From the NCBI GenBank assembly GCA_023512835.1, contig CM042085.1:48532189-48596188 (forward strand): 64,000 nt of DNA, given 5' to 3'. Made by a program: the position numbers and the translations under genes. Position 1 is the first letter of the stretch; every line of letters starts with the position of its first letter. Of the stretch, positions 1,271-30,140 are shown piece by piece. The notes under the pieces are model-generated. The model searched no databases. It was not told the DNA's origin and saw nothing but the letters and a program-made list of their open reading frames with translations. This stretch comes from Taxillus chinensis. Lineage: Eukaryota; Streptophyta; Magnoliopsida; Santalales; Loranthaceae.

Positions 1271-1513
1271 ATATGCCAAACCCTTTGTAATCTGATCTGG
1301 TTAGACAGCAAGATATACACAAAGACAAGGATAAACAGAAATTTCCACTATGTCAGCAACTGTAATACAAAGTAAGCCTTAGTACAAAAGTTATACTAAG
1401 AATTGTGAGGCTTACTGTACTTGAAGATTTTAGTTACTGCCTGCTCCCTTAGTTGCTTAGGCTGTTCTTTAGTGCATAGGAAAAAGTAATTCCAGTTAGG
1501 ATCATACTTCAAA

Positions 1514-3449
1514 TGGTGCCTGTAGGTCCCAAAGTGAGTCTAGCGGGGGGGGGGGGGGGGGGTGAATAAACTTTCGTCGTTTGTGGAAGCTAGACTGTTA
1601 GCTGGTTCTCGATTCTTCTATGGATAACTATGATGGAAGTGTTTATGGAGAAGACAACAGTAGTATTGTGGGCGATAACGTGAGTGATGATGAACTATCA
1701 AACAAAACTGAGATAAGAGTAAATGCTCTTTTCACAACAGATCTCAGTTGTGAAAATGATGGTTTATGATAGATCGACGTGTGGAAAACAACACAGAGAT
1801 TAGACTTAATAAAAGTGCTAGATCTTTGATGAACAAGAGGTTCTTGAATAATCTGATGGATTACTCTTGCTCTTTGTTCAACGCGGCGCACAACACTTAG
1901 AAGTATTTTCTCAGAGTCTCTCTCTTTTTTTTTTTTTTAACACTTGTGTTGGTTCTCCCTATTGATTATTTCTTTTGAGTATGTCAGAACCATTTTATTG
2001 TGTTCTGTGTGTTTCCTTCTTTTGAGAGAGAGGTTAAACTCTTGATTTTTTCGTTAAGTGCGTGAGAGATACATTTTTAAGATTAAAGTGCTTGTGCGCC
2101 GTGATGTCCATCCCGACAGACTGACTTCCCGCCACTGAAAATGCGGAATGTCAGGGGATGGGTTGATCTGCTTTGATTTGCAGATCAAATGCTCATACTA
2201 CGTATTTGGCATGCAGTCGATCTTGGCCGTTCATCTGTGGATGGTAGTTGGCAGCAATTAATGTGTCATTAATGCACTCAACTGCTCGGGATGGCGCCGA
2301 CTTGCTGTACAAACCCTAGCTGACAATATTGCTAAGTAGCTGTGTTTAGGGTTGTAATTTTGCCTCGAAGGTAGATGCCTCGTAGGTTCGGTGACTCGAA
2401 GATTTCAATTAGCACTTGTAGAAAGTTGCAAAGTTTTGCTTCAGGCTTTATGGTGTTTCTGCGAGTCTACGACTTACATATTCGAGTCTTCGAGGCTAGA
2501 GGTCAGGTTGGATTAGCCTTTTATGTCACTCTGCGTGTCTGCGACTCTACGAGTCTGCGACTCTTCGAATAACGCTTAGAGTGACTTCTTCGAGTTCAGC
2601 TAATCTACCTGTTATTGTAGCTACGAGTCTACGACTCTAGTTCTGCGGGTCTACGACCTTCGGGTCTCTCAGTTTACTATATTTGTCTAAGTGGTCTGAA
2701 AATCTTCGAATCTATGAGTCTTCAACTTTGCTTTTCTTCCTTAGTCTTTCACAGAGGCTCATAAACTGAGTTCCTGTATAGCTACGACCCTTTAGCTACA
2801 ACTCTCCGCCATCAATTTTCGAGTCTGGAAGTGTGGCAATTTCTCTATAGTGACTGTGTCCCTTGAGTTTACGAGTTTACGACTCTACGACTCTTGAGTT
2901 ACAGTTTCATTTGTTTGCCAGTCTTTATAGCATCGACTCTTCGTCCTTCAACCTACGAGTCTACGAGTCTAGTTTTCTTTACACTGTTCGAAGGCTTCGA
3001 CTCTGCGACTTTCGATCTACGAGTCTATGAGTCCTATTTTCTTAACAGTGTTCGAAGGTTTCGACCCTACGACTCTATGAGTCTTCGAGTCTAGTGATCA
3101 TTGAAGTTCTGTTAATTGACTTAAGTAGTTATGGGGACTCTACGAGTCTACGAGGCATTTAGCTTTGGTTACTGTTCTTAACACTTCTTCGACTCTACGA
3201 GTCTCCGAGCTTATTGACACTTAGAGTAACCCTCTCTTTTCTGTACTATGACTCTACGACCTTCGACCCTGGATCTACGAGTCGCAATGTTCTGTCACTG
3301 TTTCGCCTTGAGTCTCCAGACTCTACGAGTCTACGAGTCTCTTGCCAATACGTCCTAAGACAGTTTCACTTCTACGAACTTCGACTCTTCGTCCCTACGA
3401 CCTTCGGTTCTCCGAGTCTCCAGACTTAGACTATATTTTGGCAGCTTCA
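1514..3449 (-). mobile_element. Solo LTR G of a second copia-like family, inserted in the Ulp1-like ORF of A
   Basis: The unit begins TGGTGCC and ends CAGCTTCA in plus orientation (TG...CA). It is flanked by an exact 5-bp duplication, TCAAA (1509-1513 and 3450-3454). A G-run followed by TGAATAAA near its left end mirrors the GGGGGGTGAATAGG end of the family A-D LTRs. On that basis its sense strand is minus, with the C-run close to the LTR 3' end. No internal coding sequence is present, so it is a solo LTR of 1936 bp. Family assignment to copia is inference from the shared end structure. Confidence 0.85.
2380..3430 (-). repeat. Degenerate array of GACTCTACGAGTC units in solo LTR G
   Basis: Short words such as GACTCTACGAGTC, CTACGAGTCTACGAC and TTCGAGTC recur dozens of times over about 1 kb with irregular spacing. 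The unit is itself nearly palindromic (GACTC...GAGTC). The array occupies the upstream part of the LTR, where an enhancer or U3 region would lie. Confidence 0.85.
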
Positions 3450-6072
3450 TCAAATCCTATATTTCCAATAGTGCCTAATAAAGCAGCAGACATAGGCTCC
3501 ACAGCTTTCTCCGTCAGGTTGTTGGGGAACTTCTCCTTTGCTCAGAATTATCGAGTTGAGAAGAGCATTGGGAGGCAGAGGAGGTTGAGCAATTAATTCG
3601 AAGAGCCCACTCTATCTGACAGCATCTGATAGAGTCCGGAGCAGTGGTCCAAGATGGCTTCTTCTCATTTGGTGTCCCACAACCTGATGGGAGTCATGCA
3701 GAACAACTCTCCTATCCTTGATAGAGAAGACTACGAGGATGTAATGAGGAGTGTTGATCCTGTATGGAATGAGAACAGTTGTAAGATCTTTCCATGGCTT
3801 ATTGTTCTCAGCTGTTCCATTGATGAGGGTCTGAAGGAAGTCCATTTCAGGAAGGTAGTGATCAAGCCAACAAGGTAGGATATCGATCAGATGCTCTTCT
3901 TGGTACATGGTGGGGAACAGTCTCATCTCTTCCTTCACCGCCAAGGTACAAGGTGCTTATGTCGTCAGGGGAGAAAGGAGACAGAGATGACAAAAACCTT
4001 TTTGGAGTAGAGGGAGTAGCACTTGCATATGCTAACATGGCTGCATGTACACGCCCATCTATATCATATGGGTCCAGTTCCGCATATGATGGGAGAAACG
4101 TGACTTGCGGAGCCTGAGTGGATGAGGAGGGAGCTGCAATGGAGGAGCTGGGGTGGTCAAAAGGAGCTGGAGCAACACTAGACGGTCCAGAGAAGTGGCT
4201 GCGTTTGGGAACCGGGAGGCCCGGAGGAAGAGTAAGTGTAGGTCTTCGGCTAGGAACGTCAGTAGTAGCAGGAGCAGTAGTGGAAGGGGATGGATCAGAT
4301 GGGGCATTCTCCCCCTGTTTGGCAGATTGGCGACGAGGGCGAGAGGGACGACCCACAACCTGAGTCAGATCCCGAACGGAAGTGGATAGGCCCGAAAGAG
4401 ATTGGGCTATAAGGTCTAGCTTCCGATCTAATGAGAGAGAGGAGTTGGAGAGAGCAGAAAGGATCTGGGTCCTGATTTCATCAACTTTATCAGCAATGAC
4501 TTGGGCCCGGGATCGATTGTCCTTCGCAATACGATCTAGCTAAGCAAAGACCGCGGCTTCGGACAGAATCATGGCAAAAGAGGGACGCCCAAGGCCAAAA
4601 TCAAGAGCCTTTGAGGACTCCCCCGCATGTAAAGGTGCAGGAGTGCGTAGGGCAGATAAGTCAGCAGTTGAAGAGAATGGTGCGGGAACAGCAGCAGCAG
4701 TAAGTGTAGCGGAGCCACATTGACCGGAGAGGTCAATGATGGGAATGTCCGCATGAGTGGAGGGACCAGCCTCAGCAGGGATAGGAGTCCGTGCGTCGTG
4801 AGCAGGTCCGAAAGAGGCAACAACAATTGGAGGTGCGGCCTGAAGCGGAGACGGCATTAGAAAGCTATGTTCAGAGTTCCAAGCAATCATGGCTTCTGGG
4901 GTTTGTGTATGTTTGGTGTAATACACCCGGAGAGCAGATTCAGGGATGTCTGTAATGTGAGCTAGACTGAAACGTAGCCAGCAGTCAGTCAGAATGTCGG
5001 TGGGAAGATGGTGGAGGTAGTCTTGAGGGTCAACAATGCTTGCTGGAGAGGCAGCTAGAGGAGAGGTAGGTATGTCAGCGATGACAGCAGCTACGGCGGT
5101 AGTCACCGGAGAGGTGGGTGCGGGAGCATGAGCAGCAGGAGGGATAAAAGCAGGGGCATCAGCAGGAGGGGTTGAAGAAACAGTCTCACGATGAAGCGGC
5201 TGAGAGGGCCCTGCAGCATCAGAAGGAGCAGCATGAACGCTGTGCTGCGAACCGCGGGAGCGTGCCAGAGTGGCAACGGATTGGATGCGAGAAGACCGGT
5301 GGGTAGAGCTAACCTCGTGACCCGAGCTGGGGGCGGGGTCACCAACGAAACTATCTTGATGTTCCGATACAACAACGCGTGCACAAGAGACAGGAGGACG
5401 GCAGATAGTGAGCGTCCCATCAGAGGTGAGATGACGAAAGTAAAAGTTCTGCGGGAAGGGAATCGTCAACTAGTCCTGGAAGTGCGCAGGACGTAGATGT
5501 CTGAAAATTTGTGAGAGAATCCGTCCGAAAGACGAATTCCGTTTGTCGTTCCGCATCACCCGAAATAGAAAATCACCCCAGTCAAGAGGCAATTACTCAA
5601 AGACCACGTACATTGCCAGGAGCAGATCGTACGGGACTGAGTCAAGAGCCATAGAGCGAGCCAGTAAGCACCGGATGAGTATGGTGGCCTTACAGCGATA
5701 GGGGCCTTGAAAAGACTTCAGCTTGTATTCCTTCACCTTGGAGGGACATCCCATGGCAGTAGCCATGGTTTGAGCGCTCGGCCTGTAATCACTTCCGATT
5801 GGGAAATGGAAGACGTCACGGATCACTTGAGGAGTGATCTTAATGGGTTGACCTTGGATACCAGAGACAATCGACTGGTCACTGGATTCGAATTGCTCAT
5901 AGAAAGTTCAGACGTCTAAAATGAGAAGGTCAGCTGGGGCAGAGATGATGTCGAGGAGACCACTGTAGGCTAGCAAGGAGCGAACCTCGTCGAGCCAGGC
6001 AGGAGGGTCGGAAATGCCGGCCCAGTCGACAAGATGGCCAGGAACAACGCCTTAGAGAGCAGGAGATGCCAT

Positions 6073-7755
6073 TAGAATTTAAAGATTTGAGGAGAAGGAA
6101 AGGGAGGTCTTTGGAGAATAGAGAGCAACGAGGGTTTAGGGTTCTGAGTAGTGAAAGTGATAGCCTCGCGCTCGCGTGAGAGTTCAGTATAAGTAGGACC
6201 CGTTTTGTGGAAGCTAGCGGGTCTCGGGGTTAAGCAAGATGAGTAGTGATTCGCCTAACAATCCGATGTCATTAGACTTGATGTATTAGCGCTGTTGAGT
6301 TAACTGATGACGTGGCGGCCGTGCTAACCATTTAATAATGACAGATATATGCATACTGCCGAATTTTGAAAAGACAAATTACCGGGCTCGAGACGTGCAT
6401 TTAATGAACCATCATTATTCCTCCTCAAAAAGACGCGATGTAAGATAATCACTTGGTTTATCGCGAATAGAGAATTCCAAGAAATAGGAGGAATTGAAAC
6501 CGACTTGCATCCGGGCTAGATTATATCCGGATGAGAGACAGACTGAGTCCGTAGTAAGAGAGTGCTGAAAAAAATAGATTCCTTTGCTGTCTTGAAGTCA
6601 AAAAGAAAAGAAGTACCACAACACTTCAAATCCGAGACATCAGACAAAATATAGCAATGAGGTGCAAAGAGAATCTGTACCTGTAGCTTCAAAAAATTTA
6701 AAATAAAAGAACAGAAGACTTAGCAGGTTGAGTTAGTACAGATATAGAACAAATGGTCTAAGTAAAAACATCATAATCCGAACTAAGAAGAAACAGAACT
6801 TATGCATATGAAAGAATAGTAACAAGACACATACAAGAATTATGATCAGTTTACCAAAGAAAATGCATATGATAGATGATAAACACATAAGTTCATTTTG
6901 GACAACATAGCGAATCCTTCATACTGACAGTGGTAGCTAAGATTAATTAATTCTATATGATTTGGCCAAATTAGGATTCATGAGTGAATATGGATAATCG
7001 AACACATGTCAATAGCAAAAAGATGATTATCCGATTAAAATGCACGGTTGAAGAAAGAAAAACATCCAAACATGCCACAATTCTGATTCAACAATGCATA
7101 TCCAGTCAGATCCGGAAGTGAAAGTTTAGAGGAAAGAGCACCCGAGACATAATAGGGGGTCATTACAGAAGTAATAAATGAAGCTTTTGCTCCCCCTTAG
7201 AGCATGCGATCCTCTCAGTGAAAGACTCCCCCTCAGATAGACAGCCAGGAAAGAGGTCACGAGACATATACTGGGGTATTACTAGGATAATTAATAAAGC
7301 ATTTTCTCCCCAGTAGATCGTGCGATCCTCTCGGTTGACATTTCCTTCTTAGAGAAAGTTAGCGCTGTCTACCCTTTTAGGAAACTATACTTTAGAAGCT
7401 GATCAGACTGCGACTGTATGTACATCCACCAGGCATTCTGAGCTAACCCATTTCATTTCTTCAACTGTACACGTTAATAGAGCAATCTATATGAACCGGC
7501 ATTTGTCATGTGGTGATGAGTGGAAATTAAGATCATGAAATCCTAAGAAGGTTATTCATATAAGTTTTAATCATGTTGGCTTAAATGACTTCAGTCGGGA
7601 AACGCAAGCATCCTCCCAAAATGAAATATGAGATTAAAATCAGAAGCATGAAGCAAGTTAATCAGTAAGAATGATCAGCATTAAGTTCAGTATATGTCAT
7701 TTACTATCAAAAGGAAATACAATGCATGTTCTGGGAAACAATACTGTTGGATAAA
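6073..7755 (-). other. Spacer between pol and the additional ORF of element A
   Basis: I see no conserved coding frame here. In element orientation it contains polypurine-like GGGGGAG boxes (complement at 7190-7196 and 7226-7232). A strongly conserved block (complement contains AGACAGCCAGGAAAGAGG, near 7240) separates the boxes. The same arrangement is in B, C and D, so the spacer is a constant noncoding part of the family. Confidence 0.7.
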
Positions 7756-13509: not shown

Positions 13510-13521
13510 GCTCTGATACCA
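13510..13521 (-). other. Primer binding site of element A (initiator tRNA-Met)
   Basis: The complement reads TGGTATCAGAGC, complementary to the 3' end of plant initiator tRNA-Met. It begins two bases inside the 5' LTR. This is the canonical PBS of plant Ty1/copia elements. Confidence 0.93.
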
Positions 13522-13523
13522 CT

Positions 13524-14790
13524 TGTTGGTCCCTTGGAGCCTAGAGGGGGGTGAATAGGCTCTTAATAAAATTCTTTTCTCACTCAGGTACAACACTAAT
13601 TCTGGTTAAAAGAAATATTCAGTGCAGAAGATAACTAGATAATGAAATTGATTTGTTTTATTATCTAAAGATAATTACAACAAAAAGGCACAGCAATTAC
13701 AGCTAATAACAACGATACTCTCTTTTACAAGTTACACACACACTGGCTAGATTATCTCTATTTTGGTCAAGTACTCGTACGTATCAATTCTTCCTTTTTA
13801 TGCATGCACACTCTTTTTTTGATATACAACACTACAGATATATATATAGACATCCTAGGAATCTATCTTGGAACTGTATTTTCCGAGCACTGTGTAAACA
13901 TTAAGTTCTTCTCGGAAAATGCTTCTGCTTTAACTGCTACGGATGTGGAGCTCGAAATATTGGAAGCATAAGTGAATTGAATTACTTCGCTCGATTCCAA
14001 TTGCATTTGGGACTGCATCCACATCTCCGAGTGTTCCACGTGTAGGACAGTTTAGTTCTTCAATGAGTTTGTCTTACATCGGGACACAGCGAGCTGATAA
14101 CATAAATGCGGTATGGATAAGTTGAAGTAGCGTCTTCTTAATCCGGTGTAGATTTCCTTACTCAGTATAAATGAAGTCCTGAAATCCTTACTCCGTGTCA
14201 GCGCTTCCTTACTCCGCATGAGGTAGATATGCGGAATCCTTATTCCGCATCAGCGCTTTCTTACTCCGCGTGAGTTCCTTACTCCACTTGAGTAATGGTT
14301 CGGATTCCTTATTCCGCATTAGTTGTCCTTACTCCGCATCAGTCATTTCTTACTCCGCTCGAATGAAAGACTCGGATTCCTTAGTCCGTACCTTCTTTTC
14401 CTTAGACAGTTGGAGTGAAAGACTTAATTTCTTTCTCCGCAATAAATCTCTCTTACTCCGTACGAGTTATAGACTCGATTCTCATTCCGCATAAATTGAC
14501 TTAGTCCAATCAAGAATAAAAGCGCGGATTCCTTAGTCATTTTGTCAAGTGATTAGTCCGTACGAAGGGTCCATACTCCGGATGAAGACTTAGTTATTTA
14601 CCAAGTGTTTGACGACACTCATGATAATCCGGATCAGGATTATATATCATGTGCTTTGCTTTGCTCTCTGAGTGTAAGTCCAGTATAGGATTTTATCTTC
14701 TGCAAGCTTAAAATAAACATGAAACATCTCAAATCAAATTACATAGGGTTTTTATAACAACATCATCCAAATTATGGGTTTGATCCAACA
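13524..14790 (-). repeat. 5' LTR of copia element A
   Basis: It runs from TGTTGG (13524) to CCAACA (14790) in plus orientation and is next to the PBS. It contains the array of ACTC-N5-GAGT units (about 14150-14600). A TATA-like run lies at 13839-13848, a polyadenylation hexamer (TTTATT on plus, 13657-13662) follows it, and a GAGCCT/AGGCTC inverted repeat lies near the LTR 3' end. The outer flank is gag of element D. Confidence 0.94.
13839..13848 (-). promoter_or_regulatory. TATA-box candidate in the 5' LTR of A
   Basis: An uninterrupted TATATATATA lies downstream of the repeat array and about 180 bp before the AATAAA signal in element orientation, the usual U3/R layout. An equivalent run occurs at the same place in the LTRs of B, D and E. 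Confidence 0.5.
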
Positions 14791-16146: not shown

Positions 16147-16148
<2 letters not shown>

Positions 16149-16208: not shown

Positions 16209-16216
16209 CTTATATA
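16209..16216 (-). promoter_or_regulatory. TATA-box candidate of the gypsy-type LTR
   Basis: The minus strand reads TATATAAG, followed by GGAGGTAGAGG and AGGGTTT. It is conserved at 55951-55958 in the second copy. G-box elements lie upstream in this orientation. Confidence 0.5.
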
Positions 16217-16230
16217 GACACCTCACTTAT

Positions 16231-16405: not shown

Positions 16406-16519
16406 CATGCTACAACCTTCCTGCATCCATACAGGACAAAATACCCACAATTCGAACATAGTCCTTAAGGAAAAGATGATCAGCATAACAAAACGAAGAA
16501 GACGATGCAAAAACATGGC

Positions 16520-16549
16520 TGCACGTGACAAAGGCCATTGTCACGTGCA
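16520..16549. promoter_or_regulatory. Perfect G-box hairpin TGCACGTGACAA / TTGTCACGTGCA
   Basis: A 12-bp perfect inverted repeat with a 6-base loop carries CACGTG in both arms. Partial copies follow near 16626-16650. Two equivalents lie in the sister LTR at 56151-56180 (one mismatch) and 56253-56279. CACGTG is the plant G-box bound by bZIP and bHLH factors, and the arms lie upstream of the TATA candidate. Confidence 0.75.
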
Positions 16550-16819
16550 AGCTCCAAATGCCCTAAGATTTTTCCACAAGACTTAGAATAACTTCTGGAA
16601 GGCTCCCATGCAAAAACACCATTGTCCGTGACAAGCCATTGTCACGTGCACCACCTAAAGGTTCCCTCTTGGGCTCATCTCTTACCTCAAGCTTGCCCAT
16701 CATCATACAAAGTGTTCAAGCCAATGTGTGTGGGAATAAAACTCCCTAAAACCCAACAATTGCCACCCTAAAAGGCAAAACTACGACTAACTCCACATCC
16801 CAAAACACGGGTCATTATA

Positions 16820-17052
16820 GAAGCTTTCATGGACGTCTAGGGCTGCACGACAGCGAAAGCTGTCTGGCATAAACTGACAATCCTCTATGAGGGAAGTCAG
16901 TCCCAAATGCAGAACATCATCTGTGCTCTCAAACAAAACTTTGAGAGCTTCAATCATAAACCTGGTGAAACCCTCGAAAGCATCTATCGGTGATTCGGCA
17001 AGCTCATTCTTGAGCTGAAGACTCTCAATGAACACTACACTCAATTCCAACT
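16820..17052 (+). pseudogene. Gag fragment 2 of element D
   Basis: It continues the UBN2-like gag after the solo LTR: GCTTAKAVW, SQSQMQNIICAL, SFNHKPGETLESIY and LNEHYTQF. It contains TAG 16838-16840 at the position of gag codon 139, shared with A and B, and a second stop after ESIYR. It ends with the target duplication CAACT (17048-17052) of element B. Confidence 0.9.
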
Positions 17053-18398
17053 TGTTGGTGTCCCGAAGAGCCTAAAAGGGGGGGGGGGTGAATAGGCTCT
17101 TTGAAAATTCTTTCTCTCTCTTAATGGCTTAGACACTCACTCTGGTTAAACGGATAAAATCAGTGCGGAAGATTAACCAGGTAGTGGAAGTATGTTGCTT
17201 TATTATCTGAAGATAATTACAACAAGGCAAAACAGCATTTTAGATGATTACAACACAACACTCTCTTATGGTTACACACACTTGGCAGTTAATCTCTGTG
17301 TTTGGCTCTTTTCAAGATATACGCTTATGAATGTATAAGTACAAGTAAGTACGCGCAATCTTTTCTTATTTACATTGCTTCAGGCATATATATAGACACC
17401 CTAGAAGTCTATCTTGGAACTGTATTTTCCGAGCAGTGTGAAGCATTGAAGTTCTTCATCGGAAAATGCTAAAGCTTTAACTGCTGCGGATGTGGAGCTC
17501 GAAATATTGGAAGCATAAGTTGTAATGAATTCTTTGCTTGATTCCAATTGTATTTGAGACCGCGTCCACATCTCCACGTGATCCACGTGTAAGGTAATTT
17601 AGGTCTACAACGGGTTTGTCTTATATTAGGACAAAGCGAACTGATTGTAATTAATACGGCTCGGAAATGATGAAGCAGTGTCTTCTTAGTCCGTCATAAG
17701 GTTCCTTACTCCGTATCAGCGAAGCTCGGATCCTTACTCCGTGTTAGTGGTTGCTTACTCCGTGTGAATGAAGTCCTAGAATCCTTGTTCCGTGTCAGCG
17801 CTTTCTTACTCCGCATGAGTTGTGGTTCGGAGAGCTTACTCCGCATCTGCTCTTCCTTACTCCGTATGAGTAGTGGTCCGGAGAGCTTACTCCGCATCAG
17901 CGCTTCCTTACTCCTGCATGAGTAATGGTTCGGATTCCTTATTCCACATTTGATGTCCTTACTCCGCTCGAATGACAGACTCGGATTTCTTCGTCCGTGT
18001 CTTCTTTTTCTTAGTCCGGTTGGAGTGACAACTTCAATTCTTTCTCTCTCACAAGTCTCTTTTACTCCGTGCAAGATGTAGACTCAGGAACTTACTCCGC
18101 ATTAATTGACAATCTTGTTGAGTGTTAGACGCGGGTTCCTAGTCGTTTTGTCAAGTGTTTAATCAGCACGAAGGGTCCTTACTCCGGATGATGACTTGGT
18201 TATATACCAAGTAAATGACGACACTCATGATGATCCGGATCAGGATTATGTATCCTATCCTTAGCTTTGTCCTCACATGAGTAGGTCTGGATTTAAAGTT
18301 AACTCATCTGCTCAGACTTAATGGTAAACATGAAACATCTCGAGTCAAATTACATAGGGTTTGTTCCGCATTATCCAAATTCTCGGTTTGATCCAACA
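17053..18398 (-). repeat. 3' LTR of copia element B
   Basis: It runs TGTTGG to CCAACA and matches 28776-30140 with a few percent difference by eye. It contains the TTACTCCGC array at about 17690-18190. Its inner edge is followed by the polypurine-tract complement at 18399. Confidence 0.95.
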
Positions 18399-18414
18399 AT
18401 CTCCCCCAATATGG
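18399..18414 (-). other. Polypurine tract of element B
   Basis: The complement reads CCATATTGGGGGAGAT, directly against the 3' LTR and identical to the tract in A. Confidence 0.88.
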
Positions 18415-18538
18415 ATATGCCAAACCCTTTGTAATCTGATCCGATAAGGCAGCAAGAAATAACATAGAGGTAAGGATTAAAGAGAACAGTTCCACTTAGT
18501 TACAGCAAAAATACATTAAGCCTCAGTACAGATATACA

Positions 18539-21248
18539 TTATGGTACATACGACTTACTATATTTGAAGATCATCCTTGCTGCATGCTCTCGTAGTGCCA
18601 TTGTCTGCTTCTTGGAGAACTCGATGATATTTTTCCAGTCATCATCGAAAGAGATAACAGATTTCAAGAAGTAGCAGACAAAGGCTCCACAACTGTTTCC
18701 ATCAGGTTGCTGGGGCACATTCTTCTTGTTCCGGATCGTCCCCATGAGTACTTCATCCTGACCAAGAGGCGGTAGTTTCAAGTCTTCGTAGAGAGAACTC
18801 TGTCTGATTGCATCCGACGAGGTTCGAACGAGACTCCTCATCTGATTCTTTCTAATCGGGCGGTCAACCACCTGATGAGAATCCAGAAGCAAGATTTTCT
18901 TCTCTTTGATCAGGAATACAGTCAGCATGAAATGTGGGGAGTCGACCCAGAAGGGGATGAAAACTATGGACAGAGAGGTCCATGGTTGGCTGTTCTCTGC
19001 TGAACCATTGATGTAGGATAGAATAACGTCCACAGCAGGAAACTGGTTTTCAACCCAACAAGGAAGAATATCAAAATCAAGGCCTTCCTCAAGTAAAGAG
19101 GGAAATAGCCTCAACTCCATTTTGACTGCCAAAGCATAGTTGTCGATGTCGTCAGTGGAAAATTGTCCCTCCTCAGACAGTATGGTTTGGATATCTTGAG
19201 GTTCGAAGGGGGACAAGGCAGACACACATCGGCACTCGGCGGTGGAGGAGGCATAGGCCTTGGCAGCAGCAAGAATGCTCCCATCAGCATCATCCGGATG
19301 CAATTCCGCGTATGATGGGAGGAAGGTGATGGCACCAGATGGATCAGCAGGAGTGGGAGAGCTGGTCTGGCCAGTGGAGAAATGGCTACGTTTAGGCACG
19401 GGAAGGCCCGGAGGAAGAGCAGGTGCAGATCATTTGCGAGAAACAATGCCAGTAGTGGAAGGAGGAGAAGGATCAGATGATTTCTCCCCCGGTTTGGTAG
19501 ATTGACGAGAGTGGGAGGGACTGGCCACGACTTGCGTTAAGTCCGCAATAGAGGTAGACAAGTCAGAGAACGACATGGCAAGCCGCTCAAGCTTTTGAGC
19601 GGGAGGTAGAGGAGAAGGCAGAAAGAAGCTCGGTACCCATGGCCCGGACATGGTCGGAAAGAGCATGGGTCTGAAGATAACTGTCCTCAGCAAGGCGATC
19701 GAGTTGGGCGGAGAAAGCAGCCTCAGATAAAATCATGGCAAAAGAGGCTCGCCCTAGACCAAAGGCGGGAGCTTTTGAGGACTCGCCCGCATGAAGAGGG
19801 GCAGGTGTGGGCAGGGCAGAGTCGGCGGCAGCAGGAGAGGACGGTGGTTGTACAGCAGCAGCAGGAGGAGGGGCGGCAGATTCACTTTGACCGGAGAGGT
19901 CAATGGTAGGGATATCCGCAGGATAAGAGGGACCAGCCTCAGCAGGGACAGGTATCCGTGCGTCATGGGCAGGCCCGAAAGAGGCAGCAGCAGGAGATGC
20001 AGCCTTTAGGAGCGACGGCGTTACAAAGCCGTGGTAGCAGTTCCAAGTAATCATTTCCTCCGGGGTCTGGGTGTGTTGAGCATAAAACACCCGGAGGGTA
20101 GGTTCTGGGATGTCAGCAGTAATGGCAAGGCTGAAGCGCAGCCAGCAATCATTTAGTATGTCGGTGGAGAGATGGTCGAGATAGTCCTGGATGGCTGGAG
20201 AGTGAGCGAGAGAGGCTTCCGCAAGAGAAGATGGAAGATCCGGGAGAACAGTAGCAACAGCCGCTGTGACCAGAGAGATGGGTGCGGGAGCCTTAGCAGC
20301 AGCATCAGCAGGAAGAGAGCCAGGGACATCAGCAAGAGACACGGAGGTGGAAACCTCATGGAAGGGCGGCTGAGAGGGCCCTGCAGCAGTAGACGGGTCA
20401 GCCCGAACGCTGTGTAGCGAACTGCGGGAGCGTGCCGGAGCGGCAACAGACCGGATGCGGGAGTGAACTGACTGGAGAGCAGAACTAGCTTCGTGGCCCG
20501 AGCTGGCAACAGGCTCACCAATAGAACACGCTTGCTGTTCGGAAGCGACAGCAAGGGCACAGGAGACTGGAGGGTGGCGAACGGTGAGGGTCCCGTCGGC
20601 AGTAAGATGGCGGAAGTAGTAGAACGCCGGGAAGGGAATCACCAGTTCACCCTGGAAGTGCACGGGGTGAAGATGCCGGAAGATTTGGGACAGAATCCGT
20701 CCAAAAGATGAGTTCTGTTTCCCATTCCGCAACACCCGGAAGAGAAAGTTGCCCCAGTCAAGTGGCAGTGACTCAAAAACCGCATACATCGCCAGCAGGA
20801 GATCGTATGGAACCGAGTCGAGAGCCGTGGAGCGAGCCAGAAGACACCGGCTAAGTATGCTGGCCATACATCGGTGAGGACCATGGAAAGACTTCATTTT
20901 GTTCTCCTTCACCTTATTAGGACACCCCATGGAAGCAGCCATGGCAGCAGCATTTGGTCAAATGTCATCGCCAGCGGGAAGATTGAAAACATCCCGGATC
21001 ACCTGAGGCGTGATCCTGATAGTTTCCCCTCGAACAACAGAAAGGATAAACTCCTTAGTGGAGGTGGAGTGGTGATGGAAGGCCAGGACGTCCGAGACTA
21101 GAAGATCGGCCGGGGCAGAGACTAGCGTGAAAAGGTTGTTGTGCTTGAGTAGCTGGCGAACCTCGTGGAGCCATGCTGGAGGATCAGAGATTCCGGACCA
21201 ATCGACAAGATGGCCAGGAACAACACCATAGAGAGCTTGGGATGCCAT
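18539..21248 (-). pseudogene. Additional post-pol ORF of element B: plant-transposon-protein domain, linker, Ulp1-like (C48) protease; nearly intact
   Basis: It lies in sense orientation between pol and the 3' LTR and has about 900 codons. The start is ATG 21248 (MASQALYGVVPGHLVDW). A TGA at about codon 97 (20958-20960), a frameshift near 19590-19690 and a TGA at 19430-19432 break it; both TGAs look like CGA to TGA changes. The N-terminal region (about 330 residues, including MAASMGC, SRCLLARSTALDSVPYDLL and HLTADGTLT) resembles the family called putative plant transposon protein. The linker is Pro/Ala/Ser-rich with IPTIDLSGQ (19887-19913) and HAGESSKA. The last 286 residues (18539-19399) form a Ulp1-type cysteine protease domain: His156 in SPHFMLTVF, Asp173 in LLLDSHQ, Gln231 and Cys237 in QQPDGNSCG. 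Such enzymes cleave SUMO or related modifiers. Function in the element is unknown. Confidence 0.85.
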
Positions 21249-23017
21249 TGAGAGTAAAAGGGTGAGGGAGAAGGAGAGAAGAGCTTTGCCGGAACAGGTG
21301 CGCCAAGGATTTAGGGTTTTGAGAGTTGGTAGCGATAACCTCGGTTGACGCCGATGGTGCGGTTTAAGTAGGATCCTTTCCGTGGAAGCAAGTGGATCTT
21401 GAGTTTAAGCAAAATGAACAGTGAGCCACTCGACTTCCTTATGTTATTAGAAGTGATAGATTAGCGCCGTCGAATAGACTTATGACGTGGCGGCTGTGCT
21501 AACCATTCAAAGATGACAGCTGTGGGCATACTTCCGGATTTTTGAAAAGATAAGTATCGGGCTCGATGCGTGCATTAAATGAACCATCACTATCCCTCCT
21601 CAAAAATAAGTGATGTATGATAATTACTTGGTTTACCGCAAATTGAGAATTCCAAGAGTCAGGAGGAAATAAACCGACTTTCATCCGGAGAAGGATAATC
21701 CATATAAAGAACATCCGGATGAGACTGACTAACTGTCCGTATAACAGAGTGTTGAAAAGAGATGATTCCTTTGCGGTCTTGATGTCGAGGGAGTATGAAG
21801 TACCACAATACCTCAGAAATCCGAGACATCTGACAGGATATAGCAATGAAATGCAAAGAGAATCTGAACCCGTGACTTAACAAATAGATGCTTTGAAGAG
21901 CAGGTCTCGTCAGGTTCGGGTTAGTCCGGATAAACAATATAAGAGTATAACACACAATCCGTACTAAGAAGAGACAGAACTTATGCATAAAAAGTTAAGT
22001 GCTAGACACATACAACGAAGTGAAAACCATCATACTGAAATCAATGTATGTGTGAGATAATTAACACATAAATCCAATAGGTCAACATAGCCAATCCTTT
22101 ATACTGACAATGAGAGCAAAGATTAATTAGATTTATATGACTTCATCCATCAGAGAATGTATGAGTGAAAATGAAAGGAAGAGCACATGATGTATGATGT
22201 TGCAACCGACTGTCATGCCTAAAATGCTAGGAAGAGGAAGATAACAGCCAAGCAATCTGCAATTCCGATTCAATAGTGCAAATCCAATCAGCTTTATGAG
22301 TGAGAGTTATAGGGCGGAACATCCGAGACATATCAGAGAGGCATTACTTAATAATAAGCTTTCTCTCGCCCTGTAGTCATGCCTTTTGGTGAAACAGGGG
22401 GCCTTACTTAAGATTTAATGAAGTATTCTCTCCCCCTGAGATCAGCGAATCATTTTGATGCGATCTTCTCGAGGATGACTCCCCCTCAGATAGACAGCCA
22501 GGAAAGAGGTCATGAAGTACGAATCCGAGGGTTTTACTTTAATAATAGAGAAAGCAATTTCTCCCTCGTTGACTTTTAGGGCCTGTCAAGACGTTTCCTG
22601 TTTAACATGAATCGTGAGAAACTGCTGCCTATCCTTGATTTACTTCACTCAAGTAGCTGATCGGCAGACACAATGAATTTCCACTTTCAATCCGAGCTAT
22701 CCCAAATCATTCCTCAACCATGCATCTTAGATATTTCAGTCAGTTATTAAATCATAAGACATATGATGGAAGATGGAGTTGAATTGAATTCATGACATCA
22801 GAATAGGATTTGTGTCATATTAATTTAATTATGTTTACTTGATTTACTGTTAGTCCGGATAGGCAAGCATCCTCCCATATGAACTTAGTGAGAAATATCA
22901 GAGCATTTACACAATTAAAGTAAGATAGTTAAACATGAAGTTCAGTATCTATCACTAACCATGAAGTACAATAATGCATGTTCTGAAAGTAACTATTGAT
23001 GGATAACAGGTGAGAAG
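21249..23017 (-). other. Spacer between pol and the additional ORF of element B
   Basis: Non-coding as far as can be seen. GGGGGAG boxes occur in element orientation (complement at 22430-22436 and 22479-22485), with the conserved AGACAGCCAGGAAAGAGG block (near 22493) between repeated GTAATA-type segments. No splice signals can be asserted by eye, but a spliced or internally initiated mRNA would be needed to express the downstream ORF. Confidence 0.7.
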
Positions 23018-26000
23018 CTATGCAGAAAAGTCAAGTATACCTAATTTGAGAAGAAGTTCAGAAAATCTTACATCAGGTAGGGGCTTTGTAAGTATATCCA
23101 CCAGTTGATCTTTAGTAGCAACATGTTCCAGGGATATGTGTTTTTTAAGAACATGATCGCGAATGAAATGATGTCTGACTTCAATATGTTTTGTCTTTGG
23201 ATGCATGACGGGATTATTGCTTATAGCAATAGCACTGGTAGTGTCACAGTAGAGTGGAACAGATGTCATGTTGAAACCGTAATCAGTGAGTTGACTTTGC
23301 ATCCAGAGAAGCTGTGCGTAGCAACTCCTAGCAGCAATATATTCCGCTTCAGCAGTAGATGTTGATACGGAATTCTGCTTCTTACTGAACCAAGAGATCA
23401 ATCTGTTTCCAAGGAATTGGCATGTACCACTGGTGCTTTTCCTGTCTATGCAACACCCGCAAAATTTTTTTTATCAGCGTCAAGAATATCCGGATAAGGC
23501 GAACTTAGACTCTTTTGGGTACCAGAGTCCCAAATTAATTGTCCCTTTGAGATAACTTAATATCCGTTTTATGTGAAGCATATGTGACTCTTTGGGATTC
23601 GCCTGATATCTTGCGCAGATGCAAGTTGCAAACATTATGTCCGGGCGACTTGCTATAAGGTACAGCAAGGATCCAATCATCCCTCTATACTCAGTCACAT
23701 TCACTGATTTGCCATCAACATCTAGGTCTAACTTGGCACTGACTGACATTGGAGTGTTGACGGGAGATGAACCTTCCATACCAAACTTCTTGATTAAGTC
23801 ACGAGTGTACTTAGCTTGGTTGATGAAGATCCCTTCCTTCAGTTGTTTGACCTCGATCCCAAGGAAGTAGGACAGTTCTCCCATCATACTCATCTCAAAC
23901 TTGCCAGTCATCAACTTGGCGAACTCATCACAAAGTTTCAGATTAGTTGATCAAAAAATGATATCATCCACGTAGATCTGTACGATCAGAGTATGTGTCT
24001 TCTCTTTCCATAAGAATAGCGTGGTGTCGATCTTCCCTTTTTGGAAGTTGTGAGCGAGTAAGAATTCCGAAAGTGTGTCGTACCAGGCTCTTGGAGCTTA
24101 CTTCAATCCATACAAGGCTTTCCTTAGTTTGTAGACCAGATGTCCAGCCTTTGGTTCAATGAAGCCTGGAGGTTGTTCAACATATACCTCCTCTTGAAGA
24201 TCTCCATTTAGAAATGCACTCTTGACATCCATTTGATAAACTTTGAAGTTTTCGTAAGAAGCATATGCCAAGAACATTCTGATTGCCTCAAGTCGGGCTA
24301 CTGGAGCAAAAGTTTTGTGATAGTCTATTCTTTCTTCATGATGATAACCCTTGGCTACCAGTTAGGCTTTGTTCCGGATTACGATTCCGTCCGTATGAAG
24401 TTTGTTCCGGAACACCCATTTAACTCTAATGACTTGTTGAGACTTTGGCCTAGGTACAAGAGTCCACACATCATTCCTTTTGAACTGATTTAACTCTTCC
24501 TGCATGGCATTTATCCAATTTGAATCTTGAAGAGCTTCTTCCCCTACTTTTGGCTCTATCTGCGACAAAAAGCAAGAGTAGAGGCACATGTTGGAGGTGG
24601 CTGCTCTTGTTCTAACACCAACAGTAGGATCACCAATTACTAGTTCTTGAGGGTGGCTTTGAGTCCACCTATAGTTTTGCGCAAGTGGTGGTGAATACTC
24701 AATGATTTTAAGCTCTGTCAGATTAGGTGGTCCTTGGTCGTCCACTGATTGAGCTTCTTCTGGGCCAGTGTTATTCAAATTTACAGGTTCTGGAGTATTT
24801 TGAGGCTCTCCATTACTGTTCATTTCCGTATTAACTGGTCCGGATGGACTAGAAGGTACTCCGATATTTTGAATATTCGAAGGAATATATCCGGAGTTAT
24901 GTGGAAGTCCCGAGTCCGATTCATCCGTAGCATCATCTGCATCATTTCTTCGTTCTTCATTGGTGCCACATGGTTGGTCAGTAGAAGTAACAGGAACATT
25001 CATAAACTTTGAGTAGTCAATGTTGTCATCTTGATCCTGCACATTAGAACTTGAAGAACCAACTTTCGACCAATCCGTGTTAGCTTCATCAAAAGTCACA
25101 TGGATAGATTCTTCAACTTTGAAAAGTTTTCTATTGAAAATTCGATAAGCCTTGCTATGTAATGAGTATCCAACAAATATCCCATCATCAGATTTTGGTT
25201 CAAATTTATTCCGAGATTCTTTTCCATTGTTCAGTACGTAGCAAGTACACCCAAAGGTCCTGAAATGTGAAATAGAAGGCTTTTGGCCTTTCCACATCTC
25301 GTAGGGTGTTTTCATGGTTAATTTATTTATAAGAGTCCTGTTCTGAACATAACAGGCAGTAAACACCGCTTCAGCCCATAGACTGAGAGGAAGCTTTGCC
25401 CCTGCTAACATTGATCTGCCAGCCTCGACTAAAGTGCGATTCTTGCGCTCAGCTACCCCATTTTATTATGGAGTTCTGGGCGCAGAGAAGTCGTGCTGAA
25501 TGCCCTGTTCAGAACAATATGACCTCATATCTGAGAAATCAAATTCTGTACCATGATCACTCCTGATGCATTTAATGCTCAGTCCTTGTGAATTGCTTAT
25601 CCAGTTGAAGAGATCGACAAGGTGTTCAAAGGCTTGATCCTTAGATTTTAGGAACATCACCCATGTGTATCTGGTGAAGTCATCGATAACCACTAGAGTG
25701 TATCTCGCACCAGCAAGTAAAGAGACAGAAATGGGACCACAAAGGTCCATGTGAAGAAGTTATAAAGGAGCAGTTATTGAATTAACTATTTTGCTCTTAA
25801 AACTATGTTTGGTCTGTTTACCAAGTTGGCATTCTCAACAGAGAGTGTCTCTGGAGTATTTGTGTTTAGGCAAACCAGTGACCAAATCAAGCGACACTAA
25901 TTTAGACAAGGTCTTAAAATTTAAATGTGCGCAACAACGCTTGTGCCATAGCCAACTATCTTCATGTGATGCTGTAGTGAGGAAGCATACAGGGTCCGAA

Positions 26001-26413
26001 GAATTGTTTCTCAAGACCACAGAATATATGTCCCCATCTCTTGATCCGGATAACTTAATATCTCCGGATAAGTTATCTCTAACTGTGCAGGTGTTTGACA
26101 AAAAGGAAACTGTGAATCCTTTGTCACATAAATTACTGACACTCAGCAGATTATGCTTCAAACCTTCGACTAATGCAACCTTAGTAATTGATACACAGCC
26201 GTTGGTTAAAGTGCCATACCCCACAGTCTTACCTTTACTGTTGTCACCATATGTCACGGATGGGCCTCGTATGTCAGTAACATCCACGAGCAGAGACTTA
26301 TCACCTGTCATATGTCCGGAGCATCCACTATCCAGTATCCACTTGCTTAAATTGATCTTTGACTTCAAGTGAGATGACAGTGAATTCCATAGATGCTCCT
26401 GCAAGACAACAGA
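23018..26413 (-). pseudogene. Pro-pol region of copia element B, broken
   Basis: Retropepsin and pre-integrase (25835-26404) show ILDSGCSGHMTGD and LWHKRCCAHLNF and end at a TGA inside the pre-integrase zinc finger (C-stop-E-C). The integrase core (25466-25750) has MDLCGPIS, VIDDFTRYTW and SDHGTEF. The integrase C-terminus, linker and RT start are at 24362-25411, with WVFRNKL. The RT middle (about 23915-24361) is broken: the position of the catalytic YVDD is readable near 23960 but the frame is interrupted. RT end and RNase H (23018-23914) contain [26 protein letters not shown] and TKHIEVRHHFIRDH. A run of T at about 23467-23473 marks an indel. Confidence 0.92.
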
Positions 26414-28714
26414 TTACATTTTTGGTGCCCAAACTTGTTTTGGGCGGTTAGGAGAAGCAACAACAGTGTCAACTGTTCCGGATTTTATATTTCTAGGAAC
26501 TTTAACTTTCCAAGTTGACTTAGCTTTTTCCGGCTTAGTTGCTTCTTCAACTTGGGTTTTTTTAGGTGAAATACTCCAAGGAGTTTTAGATTTAGCTTTT
26601 CGAGAAGAACCCTTTTTAACAACCGGATTTTTATTGATTAAAGAATGATTACATAACCAGTCATTAGATAGACTCCAACACTCATAGTGATAATGACCTA
26701 TTTCGCGACATATCGAACAGACACTGTGATGAGGAGTTACAACAGGGGATACAGGTTTCTTAGGTTTTACAGGTGTTCTACTCTGTTCCCTATGGCCTAA
26801 TCCTTTGCGAACGAGTGATGCGCTCTTGGCCCTGGATGCGTCAGCCTTAGCCTTTCCTTTGTTTATGGGTGCTGCAGTTTTGGCTTTAACTGCAGCAGCT
26901 TTCCCGTCATCGTTTGGTACGGGTGCTACTACTTCAGGATTAGTAGTAACAGCCTCTATTCCACAATCATAAACTATGGTGCCACCTGAAACAAAACCAT
27001 CCAACGGTTTAGATGTACTAACAGGATATAGGTTGGTTAGTTTTGGAGTGTAGTCCGGAGGGCACTCAGTAGCTGGAGCAGTGGAATTGGATTCGGATCC
27101 TAGGCCAGGTTTGACTCGGATATTGTCAAGATTAGTTCTAAATGTAGAGGTTATTTCTCCGGATTTTAGCCATTTACGATTTATTTCCTTTTCTTTCTCA
27201 AGTTTAATCTCGAGTCTTTTAAGATTTATATTCATGCTTGTGAGGTTGGTATTCAGCAGGTGATTCTCAGCTCTTAGGTCGTGATACCAAACCTCCCTGC
27301 TTCGGTAGTCAGCTATGTCCTTTTCAAGTTTAGAAACAATAAGTTCTAGGCGCTTAGTCTGACCACTCATATTTTGATACATTTGAGTAATTATTAATCT
27401 CTCATTCTTTTCATCATCACGTTCCTTAGTAAGAGATTCTAGTTTACTCAAGAGCTCAGAGATAGAAAGTACCTCAGTATTTGCCATGAGGCAGACGTTC
27501 GCCTTTTCCGTTGGTTCGTCGTCTGAAGATTCCTCTTCTTCTTCCGAGCCACTATTGTATTTTAAGACGAACGCCTTCCTCTTCATTTTGCTGTTGTCTG
27601 AGGTGGAGCGTCGGGGTTTAACCTTGTCATCCTTGTCAGCCATCTTGGGTTTGGATCTATAGTCCTTGGCCCAATGACCAGGTTTCCCGCAGTTGTAGCA
27701 GTCTTGGGATGTTGACTCCGACCGCTCCTTCCTTCTCGAGGATGAGGAAGAGCCTCTTCTGAATCCTTTTTTGCTTTTCCGTAGGAATCGTGTGAAGGAT
27801 TTCACCAGAAGTGCTATTTCTTCTTCCATGACCGAGTCAGAGTTTTCTGACTTTTTCGTATCATCCTCCATCAGCATGCTTGGTCCAGCTGTAGCCTTAA
27901 GAGCTACCCCCTTTTCTTTCCAAGCTATCTTCTCGTCTCGGTCAGTGTATTTGAATCTGACCTCATGAGTCCGTAGCTCTCCATATAGCTCTTCAAGGGG
28001 AGCATACTGCCAGTTGTCTTTGGATTGCATCTGAAGCTGCTTGGAGTAATAGCAATCCGGCAAGGAACGAAAGAACTTGTCATTTATTTGGAACTGAGTG
28101 TAATGCTCGTTGACAATTTTCAATTCCAGGATAAGCTTACCGAATCGCCGTTAGATGCTCTCCAGGGGTTCGCCAGGTTTATGGTTGAAGCTCTCAAAAT
28201 TCTGTCTGAGAGCGCAAATGACGTTCTGCATCTGGGACTGACTTCCTTCATATAGAATAGTCAATTTGTCCCACACAGCTTTTGTTGTCGTGCAGCCCTA
28301 GACGTCCGTGAAAGCCTCTGAATCCAAGGACGATGTCACGTAAGCTAGAGCCTTTTCACTGGCGTATTGCCAGGCTCTTTCATCATGAGTGAGTTCAGCA
28401 TCAGTCTTTGGTCTCCTGACCCCATTTTCTTCGATGGTCATCGGAATGGGAAGCTCCTGATGAAGACACGGCCACATTAGATGATCATGACAGGTCATGA
28501 ACATCTTCATGCGAGCTTTCCACTGGGAGAAAAGCTCTGGTGTGAACTTGGGTGGTTTGCTTAAAGTGTAGCCTGAACTCTGTGGTTGAGGAGCAGCGGC
28601 AGCAGCAGGTTGAGGTGGATCAACATTTTCACTGCTGCTTCGGTTGGGAAGGGGCTCTTGAGCTCCCCTAGAGTTGAGGCGAGTATTGAATAGCATGCTA
28701 CTTTCTTCAGCCAT
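26414..28714 (-). pseudogene. Gag of copia element B, two early stops then a 569-codon open stretch
   Basis: It starts at ATG 28714 (MAEESSMLF). TAG 28298-28300 falls at codon 139, and a TAA follows in ESI-stop-RRFGK (near 28155). After that the frame is open from about 28123 to the TAA 26414-26416. Visible features are the UBN2-like core, the CCHC zinc knuckle CYNCGKPGHWAKDY (last Cys changed to Tyr), the acidic run GSEEEEESSDDEP, a coiled-coil-like segment (LSKLESLTKERDDEKNERL, then RLELIVSKLEKDI), a basic Ala/Lys region and a second CCHC motif, CSICREIGHYHYEC. Two CCHC knuckles and a long gag fit Sirevirus-like copia elements. Confidence 0.9.
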
Positions 28715-28761
28715 TGTTAAGTTGAGAGGGAGTTAGGGATCTCTACGAGCAGGTAAAACTT

Positions 28762-28773
28762 GCTTTGATACCA
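28762..28773 (-). other. Primer binding site of element B, one base off canonical
   Basis: The complement reads TGGTATCAAAGC against canonical TGGTATCAGAGC in A and C. The G to A change may be post-insertion deamination. It sits two bases from the LTR end. Confidence 0.85.
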
Positions 28774-28775
28774 CT

Positions 28776-30140
28776 TGTTGGTCCCGGAGAGCCTAAGGGG
28801 GGGGGGGGTGAATAGGCTCTTTGAAAATTCTTTCTCTCTCTCTTAATGGCTTAGACACTCACTCTGGTTAAACGTATAAAATCAGTGCGGAAGATTAACC
28901 AGGTAGTGGAAGTATGTTGCTTTATTATCTGAAGATAATTACAACAAGGCAAAATAACGTTTTAGCTGATTACAACAAAACACTCTGTTATTGTTACACA
29001 CACTTGGCAGTTAATCTCTGTGTTTGGCTCTTTTCAAGATATACGCTTATGAATGTATAAGTACAAGTAAGCACGTGCAATCTCTTCTTATTTACATTGC
29101 TTCAGGCATATATATAGACACCCTAGAAGTCTATCTTGGAACTGTATTTTCCGAGCAGTGTGAAGCATTGAAGTTCTTCATCGGAAAATGCTGAAGCTTT
29201 AACTGCTGCGGATGTGGAGCTCGAAATATTAGAAGCATAAGTTGTAATGAATTCTTTGCTTGATTCTAATTGTATTTGAGACCGCGTCCACATCTCCGCG
29301 TGATCCACGTGTAAGGTAATTTAGGTCTACAACGGGTTTGTCTTACATCGGGACGAAGCGAACTGATTGTAATTAATACGGCTCGAAAATGATGAAGCAG
29401 CGTCTTTTTAGTCCATCATAAGGTTCCTTACTCCATATCAGCGAAGCTCGGATCCTTACTCCGTGTCAGTGGTTGCTTACTCCGTGTGAATGAAGTCCTG
29501 GAATCCTTATTCCGTGTCAGCGCTTTCTTACTCCGCATGAGTAGTGGTTCAGAGAGCTTACTCCGCATCAACTCTTCCTTACTCCGTATGAGTAGTGGTC
29601 CGGAGAGCTTACTCCGCATCAGCGCTTCCTTACTCCTGCATGAGTAATGGTTCGGATTCCTTATTCCGCATTTGATGTCCTTACTCCGCAACAATTGTCC
29701 TTACTTCGCTCGAATGACAGACTCGGATTTCTTCGTCCGTGTCTTCTTTTTCTTAGTCCGGTTGGAGTGACAACTTTGATTCTTTCTCTCTCACAAGTCT
29801 CTTTTACTCCATGCAAGATGTAGACTCAGGAACTTACTCCGCATTAATTGACAATCTTGTTGAGTGTTAGACGCGGGTTCCTAGTCGTTTTGTCAAGTGT
29901 TTAATCAGCATGAAGGGTCCTTACTCCGGATGATGACTTGGTTATATACCAAGTGAATGACGACACTCATGATGATCCGGATCAGGATTATGTATCCTGT
30001 CCTTAGCTTTGTCCTCACATGAGTAGGTCTGGATTTAGAGTTAACTCATCTGCATAGACTTAATGGTAAACATGAAACACCTCGAGTCAAATTACATAGG
30101 GTTTGTTCCGCATTATCCAAATTCTCGGTTTGATCCAACA
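28776..30140 (-). repeat. 5' LTR of copia element B
   Basis: It runs TGTTGG to CCAACA and ends at the target duplication CAACT. It contains a TATA candidate (29109-29116), the AATAAA complement TTTATT (28921-28926) and the ACTC-N5-GAGT array (about 29420-29930). Confidence 0.95.

Follow-up and report, generated by a model that had tools for sequence, protein, structure and literature searches.

A Ulp1-like cysteine protease domain in the post-pol gene of Sirevirus-type Copia retrotransposons of Taxillus chinensis

Sireviruses make up about 21% of the maize genome (PMC3599292), and many of these Copia retrotransposons carry an additional open reading frame (ORF) behind pol whose role is a long-standing question. 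This ORF (eORF-3'F) is present in 74% of SIRE elements and is highly heterogeneous (REXdb, PMC6317226); according to MASiVEdb the origin of the env-like gene is unknown and its function unproven (PMC3414828), and these sources variously call the subject unknown, controversial or speculative (PMC3414828, PMC6317226). Could such a gene encode an enzyme? The question is raised by a 64,000-nt stretch of the genome of Taxillus chinensis (contig CM042085.1, positions 48,532,189 to 48,596,188; hereafter the window), in which four Copia elements, A to D, carry a gene or its remnant between pol and the 3' long terminal repeat (LTR) that ends in a domain resembling the Ulp1-like cysteine proteases of family C48. 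We refer to this post-pol (eORF-3'F or env-like) ORF as the aORF, and the survey below covers its copies in A, B, C and D of this one window.

In B the aORF occupies exactly the interval that the initial annotation had assigned to it (18539-21248), and consists of three open pieces on the minus strand (20961-21404, 19590-20957 and 18542-19429) interrupted by two in-frame stops and a single frame change. Its C-terminal piece matches Pfam Peptidase_C48 (PF02902) over residues 146-291 with E=4.7e-11 and 43.4 bits (cut-off 20.7), and the Cys-bearing piece of A (3456-3611) matches the same family with E=3.4e-5 and 24.2 bits against the same cut-off, which bears out the Ulp1-like C-terminal domain proposed earlier. 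The other two B pieces had no Pfam match above threshold, and the C48 piece had no match in NCBIfam. Six window pieces, three from D, two from A and one from B, were combined into a profile, which retrieved 18 distinct sequences from the PDB at E<=1. The top matches were two entries titled as a chlamydial 'membrane thiol protease' (1.7e-5; one of them, 5b5q, we take to be Dub1) and three Dub1 entries (1.9e-5 to 2e-5); lower down came yeast Ulp1 (0.0063), Dub2, SENP1, Ulp2 and SENP2, together with two entries titled only 'Protease' (4piq and 4wx4, both presumably adenovirus protease; E=0.11) and one 'Conserved membrane protein'. Since the chlamydial thiol protease and the deubiquitinase/deneddylase Dub1 outscore yeast Ulp1, ubiquitin-like (Ubl) protease is the safer name for the domain.

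The catalytic residues point the same way. His166, Asp183, Gln241 and Cys247 of the B piece, all four of which the initial annotation had already read from the sequence, stand at successive spacings of 17, 58 and 6 residues; Ulp1 and SENP1 have the same His-Asp (17) and Gln-Cys (6) spacings. In the two printed profile alignments, both to 5b5q, His, Asp and Cys are in register, and the Gln of 5b5q aligns with the first of two adjacent Gln in the B motif. The ordered set His-Asp-Gln-Cys is complete in A and B. Counted over the elements, the His and Asp codons are found in 4/4, Cys in 3/4 and Gln241 in 2/4 (A and B), while the Gln preceding Gln241 is kept in A and D. The Asp of C is visible in the nucleotide alignment only (GAT), the protein map reading Ile at this site because C is out of frame there. 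A, B and D share the same His, Asp and Cys, in a stretch where just 65 of 193 comparable positions are identical in all three. As far as sequence comparison can tell, homology of the C-terminal domain to C48 is very nearly certain: the domain is of the C48 protease type, a classification that does not imply specificity for SUMO, and in intact copies it was probably catalytically active.

Is this one gene, inherited as a unit? The claim that the same extra gene is present in all four elements holds for A, B and D, where tblastn with the B pieces finds the N-terminal, middle and C-terminal parts alike (C-terminal piece, E=9e-63 in A and 6e-64 in D; middle piece, 4e-174 and 2e-97, respectively), and has to be revised for C, a truncated remnant that lacks the N-terminal half and matches the C-terminal B piece only, and weakly (1.3e-6, 2.3e-6). 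In A, B, C and D the aORF lies on the pol strand between pol and the 3' LTR, as had been described, ending 140 bases before the LTR in B and 148 in D. Alignable DNA flanks it on either side in the elements, and the C-terminal parts themselves differ in 38-49% of aligned bases over the six pairs among A, B, C and D. A single frame, with stops, can be traced in D from 47932 to 50442, with another frame at either end and local frame changes within the linker and close to the Asp motif; the A copy can be followed in one frame, again with stops, from its N-terminus down to about 3919. Because frame changes fall at mostly different places in A, B and D, and because the C48 part shares its frame with most of the D aORF and, as far as about 3919, with that of A, we infer that the ancestral aORF was one ORF of about 900 codons. 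The aORF of A additionally contains an insert of ~1.94 kb (1513-3455), with a 64-bp tandem repeat inside it (2933-3074) and no second copy in the window by blastn, and this insert explains the long interval originally given for A.

Substitution rates were estimated by the Nei-Gojobori method on codons aligned by tblastn (segments at E<=1e-3), leaving out those that held a stop, a gap or an N; C entered the aORF calculations in the B-C comparison only. Over the whole aORF the ratio of nonsynonymous to synonymous rates (dN/dS) was 0.25 (interval 0.20-0.29; 814 codons) for A-B, 0.29 (0.21-0.37; 781 codons) for A-D and 0.25 (0.18-0.32; 799 codons) for B-D, and for B-C it was 0.30 (0.00-0.59; 232 codons). 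In D the tblastn frame passes across the local frame changes of the linker and of the Asp-motif region, which inflates dN for D. The same whole-aORF codons in shifted frames gave 0.93-1.43, nine of nine LTR control tests (three LTR pairs in three frames) gave 0.58-0.78, and the six reverse transcriptase (RT) pairs gave 0.10-0.23. For the C48 region alone dN/dS was 0.22 (0.00-0.36), 0.17 (0.00-0.37) and 0.26 (0.00-0.45) for A-B, A-D and B-D. As dS of single regions was near saturation or infinite in several rows, we rely on the whole-ORF values and on the ratio of uncorrected proportions (pN/pS), which for C48 was 0.45 (0.36-0.56), 0.47 (0.38-0.59) and 0.53 (0.43-0.65) for the same pairs, compared with 0.65-0.82 for the LTRs (ratios of rounded values). 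The A, B and D aORFs have diverged under purifying selection, and the ancestral active elements kept the gene coding. The initial annotation had named the lack of a significant Ulp1 profile hit and a neutral dN/dS among the outcomes that would speak against its reading, and neither occurred; the range of 0.25-0.29 is not neutral, and that the aORF is a selected gene we regard as highly probable. The two LTRs of A and of B have diverged by only 0.034-0.038, so nearly all of the A-B difference presumably arose in mobile ancestors.

Two further contrasts concern the history of these genes. Between A and B, dS is 1.15 in the aORF and 0.73 in the RT, and the higher aORF value may reflect mosaic ancestry. 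In C (34763-40458) the RT is close to those of A and B (dN 0.10-0.11), but divergence is much greater in the C48 remnant (pN 0.51 to B), which may reflect either mosaic ancestry or faster decay of the C48 part.

To which lineage do the elements belong? Six Sirevirus hallmarks as defined in PMC2829016 were tested, of which four were found and one was absent, the octamers being described separately below. First, the 16-mer spanning the 5' LTR and the primer-binding site (PBS), which in Sireviruses consists of CA, then ATTGG (AGTGG in some), then nine bases of the PBS (PMC2829016), is represented by CAAGTGGTATCAGAGC in A and again exactly in C (32278-32293, plus strand), with one mismatch in B; the D junction is without it. 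Second, a polyC signal, a run of at least four C some 20-26 bases from the end, occurs in 7/7 LTRs. Third, inverted repeats at the junction of the polypurine tract and the 3' LTR reach at best 22 bases in A, 19 in B and 26 in D but no more than 10 in C, their left arm stopping some 10 bases before the terminal octamer without touching it. The fourth is the post-pol eORF itself, with all three pieces in A, B and D and a truncated copy in C. Sireviruses also carry several identical polypurine octamers in the linker, the last of them at the 3' LTR (PMC2829016). Here, six of the seven exact AGGGGGAG octamers in the window (both strands) form pairs upstream of the aORFs of A (7233, 7197), B and D (46638, 46673); the terminal octamer is TGGGGGAG in 4/4 elements, and no exact AGGGGGAG follows the aORF. 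The palindromic CGG-CCG motif was the absent one, with no CGG-N0-4-CCG in six of seven LTRs and one in the seventh. Allowing one mismatch, CGGAGTAAG occurs 8-17 times in each of the seven LTRs, compared with about 0.2 in base shuffles, and is possibly a non-palindromic analogue of the repeated Sirevirus motif. LTRs of 1.25-1.39 kb and an element length of 13.1 kb are within the Sirevirus sizes of PMC2829016, a source that also mentions Tnd-1 as departing from the signature. With four hallmarks found and the others mixed or failing, we call the elements Sirevirus-type, in agreement with the env-like slot proposed at the outset; that the aORF corresponds to the Sirevirus env-like gene is very likely, the class resting on structural hallmarks.

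The LTRs also contain short tandem arrays, mostly of CGGAGTAAG/CTTACTCCG, at 630-749, 17754-17967, 29506-29690, 31352-31573, 41176-41286, 51030-51296 and 52541-52614, with another at 59653-59799 outside the mapped elements.

The remainder of the protein is less distinctive. The initial annotation had assigned the N-terminus to a domain of the plant transposon protein type: the open D piece 47917-48417 does match PF20167 (Transposase_32) with 9.5e-6 and 26.0 bits, and the B N-terminal piece gives E=0.23 and 11.7 bits, but none of A, B and D reaches the gathering score of 45 bits and the A counterpart has no PF20167 match. Membership is at best suggestive. Two grapevine (Vitis) proteins, P0053 and P0086, show a comparable arrangement, with RVT_2 followed by a PF20167-like tail directly after pol; their RTs are 62% and 60% identical to that of C, and their PF20167 scores (29.5 and 35.2 bits) are likewise below 45. 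Comparison by hhalign of the aORF N-terminus set with the Vitis set gave a probability of 41 and E=2.8e-4 over 43 columns, and BLASTP of D against P0053 gave E=0.006. These similarities suggest that the aORF N-terminal domain also occurs in post-pol ORFs of grapevine Copia elements, which would themselves be Sireviruses; unlike the window aORF, the predicted P0053 and P0086 proteins end inside the PF20167-like domain. The Pro/Ala/Ser-rich linker noted originally is readily seen (P+A+S of 39% over B piece 19590-20957), and near its end an ad hoc heptad score was reached by 0/200 shuffles in A, 12/200 in D and 151/200 in B.

How does this gene compare with known systems? C48/Ulp1 domains have been published for Mutator-like elements (MULEs), Ginger1, Cryptons and NeSL/Utopia (PMC13317346, PMC2836005, PMC3212892, PMC4640811), the first of these agreeing with the earlier remark that such genes are captured by Mutator-like DNA transposons. 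Our searches of the open-licence literature turned up no LTR retrotransposon described with a C48 gene, a finding in line with the initial view that a protease gene is not a standard part of Copia elements; a report elsewhere is possible. The eORF-3'F of Sireviruses (SIRE/Maximus) and the aORF have in common their position, strand and fast evolution, as well as the junctions and sizes of the elements; unlike published eORF-3'F, for which we saw no report of a protease, the aORF ends in a C48 domain. Closest in arrangement are KIU and VANC of the VANDAL MULEs, plant elements that likewise carry a Ulp1 domain in a second gene, distinct from that of the transposase, although VANDAL is a DNA transposon and the window elements are Copia. 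Ulp1-bearing KIU genes have been linked to anti-silencing and sequence-specific hypomethylation, the role of the Ulp1 domain itself being described as unknown (PMC13317346). VANC proteins carry DUF1985 and DUF287 (PMC5735166); neither had a Pfam match in eight aORF pieces (E<=1) or in three further pieces (E<=0.1). NeSL/Utopia are also retrotransposons with a Ulp1-like cysteine protease (PMC4640811), but they are non-LTR elements of nematodes with the protease N-terminal on the RT protein, and Ginger1 (PMC2836005) and Cryptons (PMC3212892), mobile elements with a C48 domain as well, are DNA transposons in which the protease is fused to or beside the transposase or recombinase.

The explanation we favour overall, and to which we give about an even chance, is that the aORF is a third gene of Sirevirus-type Copia elements encoding their own Ubl/SUMO protease directed at host factors. 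The ancestral protein of ~900 residues would have comprised the PF20167-like N-terminus, the Pro/Ala/Ser-rich linker, a possible short coiled coil and the C-terminal C48 domain. It might be translated from a subgenomic RNA or from one with an internal start, its N-terminal part might act as a targeting module, and the protease would be catalytic and strip SUMO or another Ubl tag from nuclear host factors, namely those that silence the element or gate its integration. The model is drawn by analogy from the Ulp1-bearing KIU genes of VANDAL transposons, and on that analogy the removal of Ubl tags from host silencing or integration factors is conceivable as the mode of action, at somewhat less than even odds. 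More tentative is the broader proposal that the Sirevirus 'envelope-like' gene, here and perhaps ancestrally, is a Ubl/SUMO-protease anti-silencing effector, the LTR-retrotransposon counterpart of KIU, with a protease part too diverged to be recognised in most hosts. An enzyme domain with a catalytic triad in a selected ORF gives the env-like gene a testable biochemical function and, if the proposal is true, Ubl removal would be a strategy common to plant DNA transposons and LTR retrotransposons. The initial annotation, which had suggested SUMO removal from host factors or processing of the element's own proteins, is confirmed in its observation and partly supported in its interpretation.

Several results weigh against a host-directed protease. 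All aORF copies in the window are broken; the Gln241 position is a stop codon in D, and C is without an in-frame Gln/Cys motif. Neither the His/Asp piece of A, whose sole match was Peptidase_C39 (E=0.11, below cut-off), nor D piece 49969-50160 matches C48 alone. The best profile matches in the PDB are not SUMO proteases, and the single-sequence PDB search of the B piece was weak, with Ulp1 third (E=0.77) after two unrelated chains. No relative of the C48 region was found at E<=1e-3 among 895 protein-database candidates, nor at E<=1 among 4,507 candidates (length range set by the 902-residue query); this search required shared 5-residue words and scaled E-values to 5.8 billion sequences, so that the missing relatives are weak evidence of absence. 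AlphaFold2 models from the six-piece alignments were poor (mean confidence scores, pLDDT, of 40.1 and 45.5), and Foldseek with the second model gave 0 matches at E<=0.001 and no CE-clan protease among the 50 matches listed; the order of strands and helices round His and Asp in the models is compatible with the Ulp1 fold and is not counted as evidence. On the side of selection, the C48-only dN/dS intervals are wide with dS near saturation, shifted frames of that region gave 0.66-1.51 (the lowest for B-D), and the upper bound of the B-D C48 pN/pS touches the lowest LTR value. The C48 part is also no better conserved than the linker (pN 0.30 versus 0.22 for A-B, 0.34 versus 0.37 for A-D, and 0.36 versus 0.37 for B-D), and the aORF dN/dS is 1.2 to 2.5 times that of the RT in the same pairs.

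Some of these points would fit an 'envelope-like' protein with a structural or movement role, whose Ulp1-like domain would be a scaffold and play no catalytic part. Sirevirus eORFs have traditionally been described as env-like, with transmembrane and coiled-coil domains (PMC3414828), the heptad-like stretch scores above shuffled sequence in A and in D but not in B, and the catalytic set is incomplete in C and D. We nevertheless consider a scaffold unlikely, given the strict identity of the three residues His, Asp and Cys among A, B and D within such poorly conserved surroundings, and given that the B pieces have no clear transmembrane segment (best 19-residue mean hydropathy 1.67); on the latter ground an envelope protein with a membrane anchor was dropped.

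Quite unlikely, too, is a protease that acts solely within the element, by processing Gag or the aORF product, with no target in the host. Adenovirus-type CE-clan proteases act in virion maturation, two of the 18 PDB matches (4piq and 4wx4) are presumably of this kind, and the aORF sits in a particle-forming retroelement. The better-scoring PDB matches, however, are Ubl proteases, and the pol of LTR retrotransposons already supplies an aspartic proteinase (PMC7264820).

Passive capture of a functionless host Ulp1 gene fragment (transduplication) would agree with the frequent capture of genes by plant elements (PMC13317346), but is very improbable when the same domain is found in the same place in four elements with such different C-terminal parts, and it was dropped on the whole-aORF dN/dS, which is far under the LTR control. 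An unrelated MULE or CACTA transposon nested in the Copia elements deserves hardly any credence even though plant MULEs are known to carry Ulp1 genes (PMC13317346), as the aORF always lies at the same point between pol and the 3' LTR, on the pol strand, in A, B, C and D, and this reading was dropped on the alignable DNA on both sides, no search having been aimed at terminal inverted repeats.

Table 1. Positions of the aORF copies, their domains and the associated element features in the window.
Feature	Position	Strand	Basis or remark
aORF of B, three open pieces	18539..21248	-	ORF list, tblastn, dN/dS
aORF of A, interrupted 1513-3455	1405..6117	-	tblastn; C48 E=3.4e-5 on 3456-3611
aORF of C, truncated and decayed (linker end and C48 remnant)	about 39101..40458	+	tblastn
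aORF of D	47794..50509	+	tblastn; 47917-48417 open, PF20167-like; Cys motif in 50341-50442
C48/Ulp1-like cysteine protease domain of B, residues 100-296 of piece	18542..19132	-	PF02902, PDB profile search
Predicted catalytic His codon of B (His166 of piece)	18932..18934	-	His also in A, C, D
Predicted catalytic Asp codon of B (Asp183), 17 residues after His	18881..18883	-	Asp also in A, D; GAT in C
Probable oxyanion-hole Gln codon of B (Gln241), 6 residues before Cys	18707..18709	-	Gln in A
Predicted catalytic Cys codon of B (Cys247)	18689..18691	-	Cys also in A, D
aORF N-terminal domain of B, PF20167-like, sub-threshold	20583..21248	-	Pfam, hhalign
Pro/Ala/Ser-rich linker of B	19590..20582	-	composition
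Element B, Sirevirus-type Copia insertion, both LTRs	17053..30140	-	self-BLAST, LTR ends, target duplication
5' LTR of B	28776..30140	-	self-BLAST, LTR ends, target duplication
3' LTR of B	17053..18398	-	self-BLAST, LTR ends, target duplication
Two exact AGGGGGAG octamers of B, downstream of RT/RNase H and upstream of aORF	22430..22486	-	
Sirevirus-type 5' LTR/PBS junction CAAGTGGTATCAGAGC of A	13510..13525	-	exact match

Element B is bounded by TG..CA ends and a 5-bp target duplication (CAACT, at 17048-17052 and 30141-30145), and its LTR pair is 95.0% identical by self-BLAST (Kimura two-parameter distance 0.034). It retains a gag piece with a zinc knuckle and pol pieces with matches to Pol_BBD, gag_pre-integrs and the SH3-like domain of Copia-type pol. 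The RT regions of B and C are 82% identical, and that of C matches RVT_2 with 7.7e-79. An RT search of the protein database gave 7,991 relatives, with plants among them (best 120 of 7,991 listed), and in contig collections of viruses and prokaryotes no Copia RT relative was found, in keeping with the plant origin of the element.

Elements C and D (31034-41908 and 41910-52051) form a tandem-like LTR-internal-LTR-internal-LTR layout. Over an 883-column match the LTR that precedes the D internal region and the one at the D 3' end are only 65.6% alike, and the usual PBS is missing at the junction of the former with the internal region, so that recombination or deletion is likely. An inverted LTR of the same family, 83% alike, directly adjoins the D 3' LTR (52052-53226). 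Finally, a second repeat family is present at 14927-16817 and 54505-56449, its copies being 71-83% alike and containing tandem arrays of 37- to 40-bp units.

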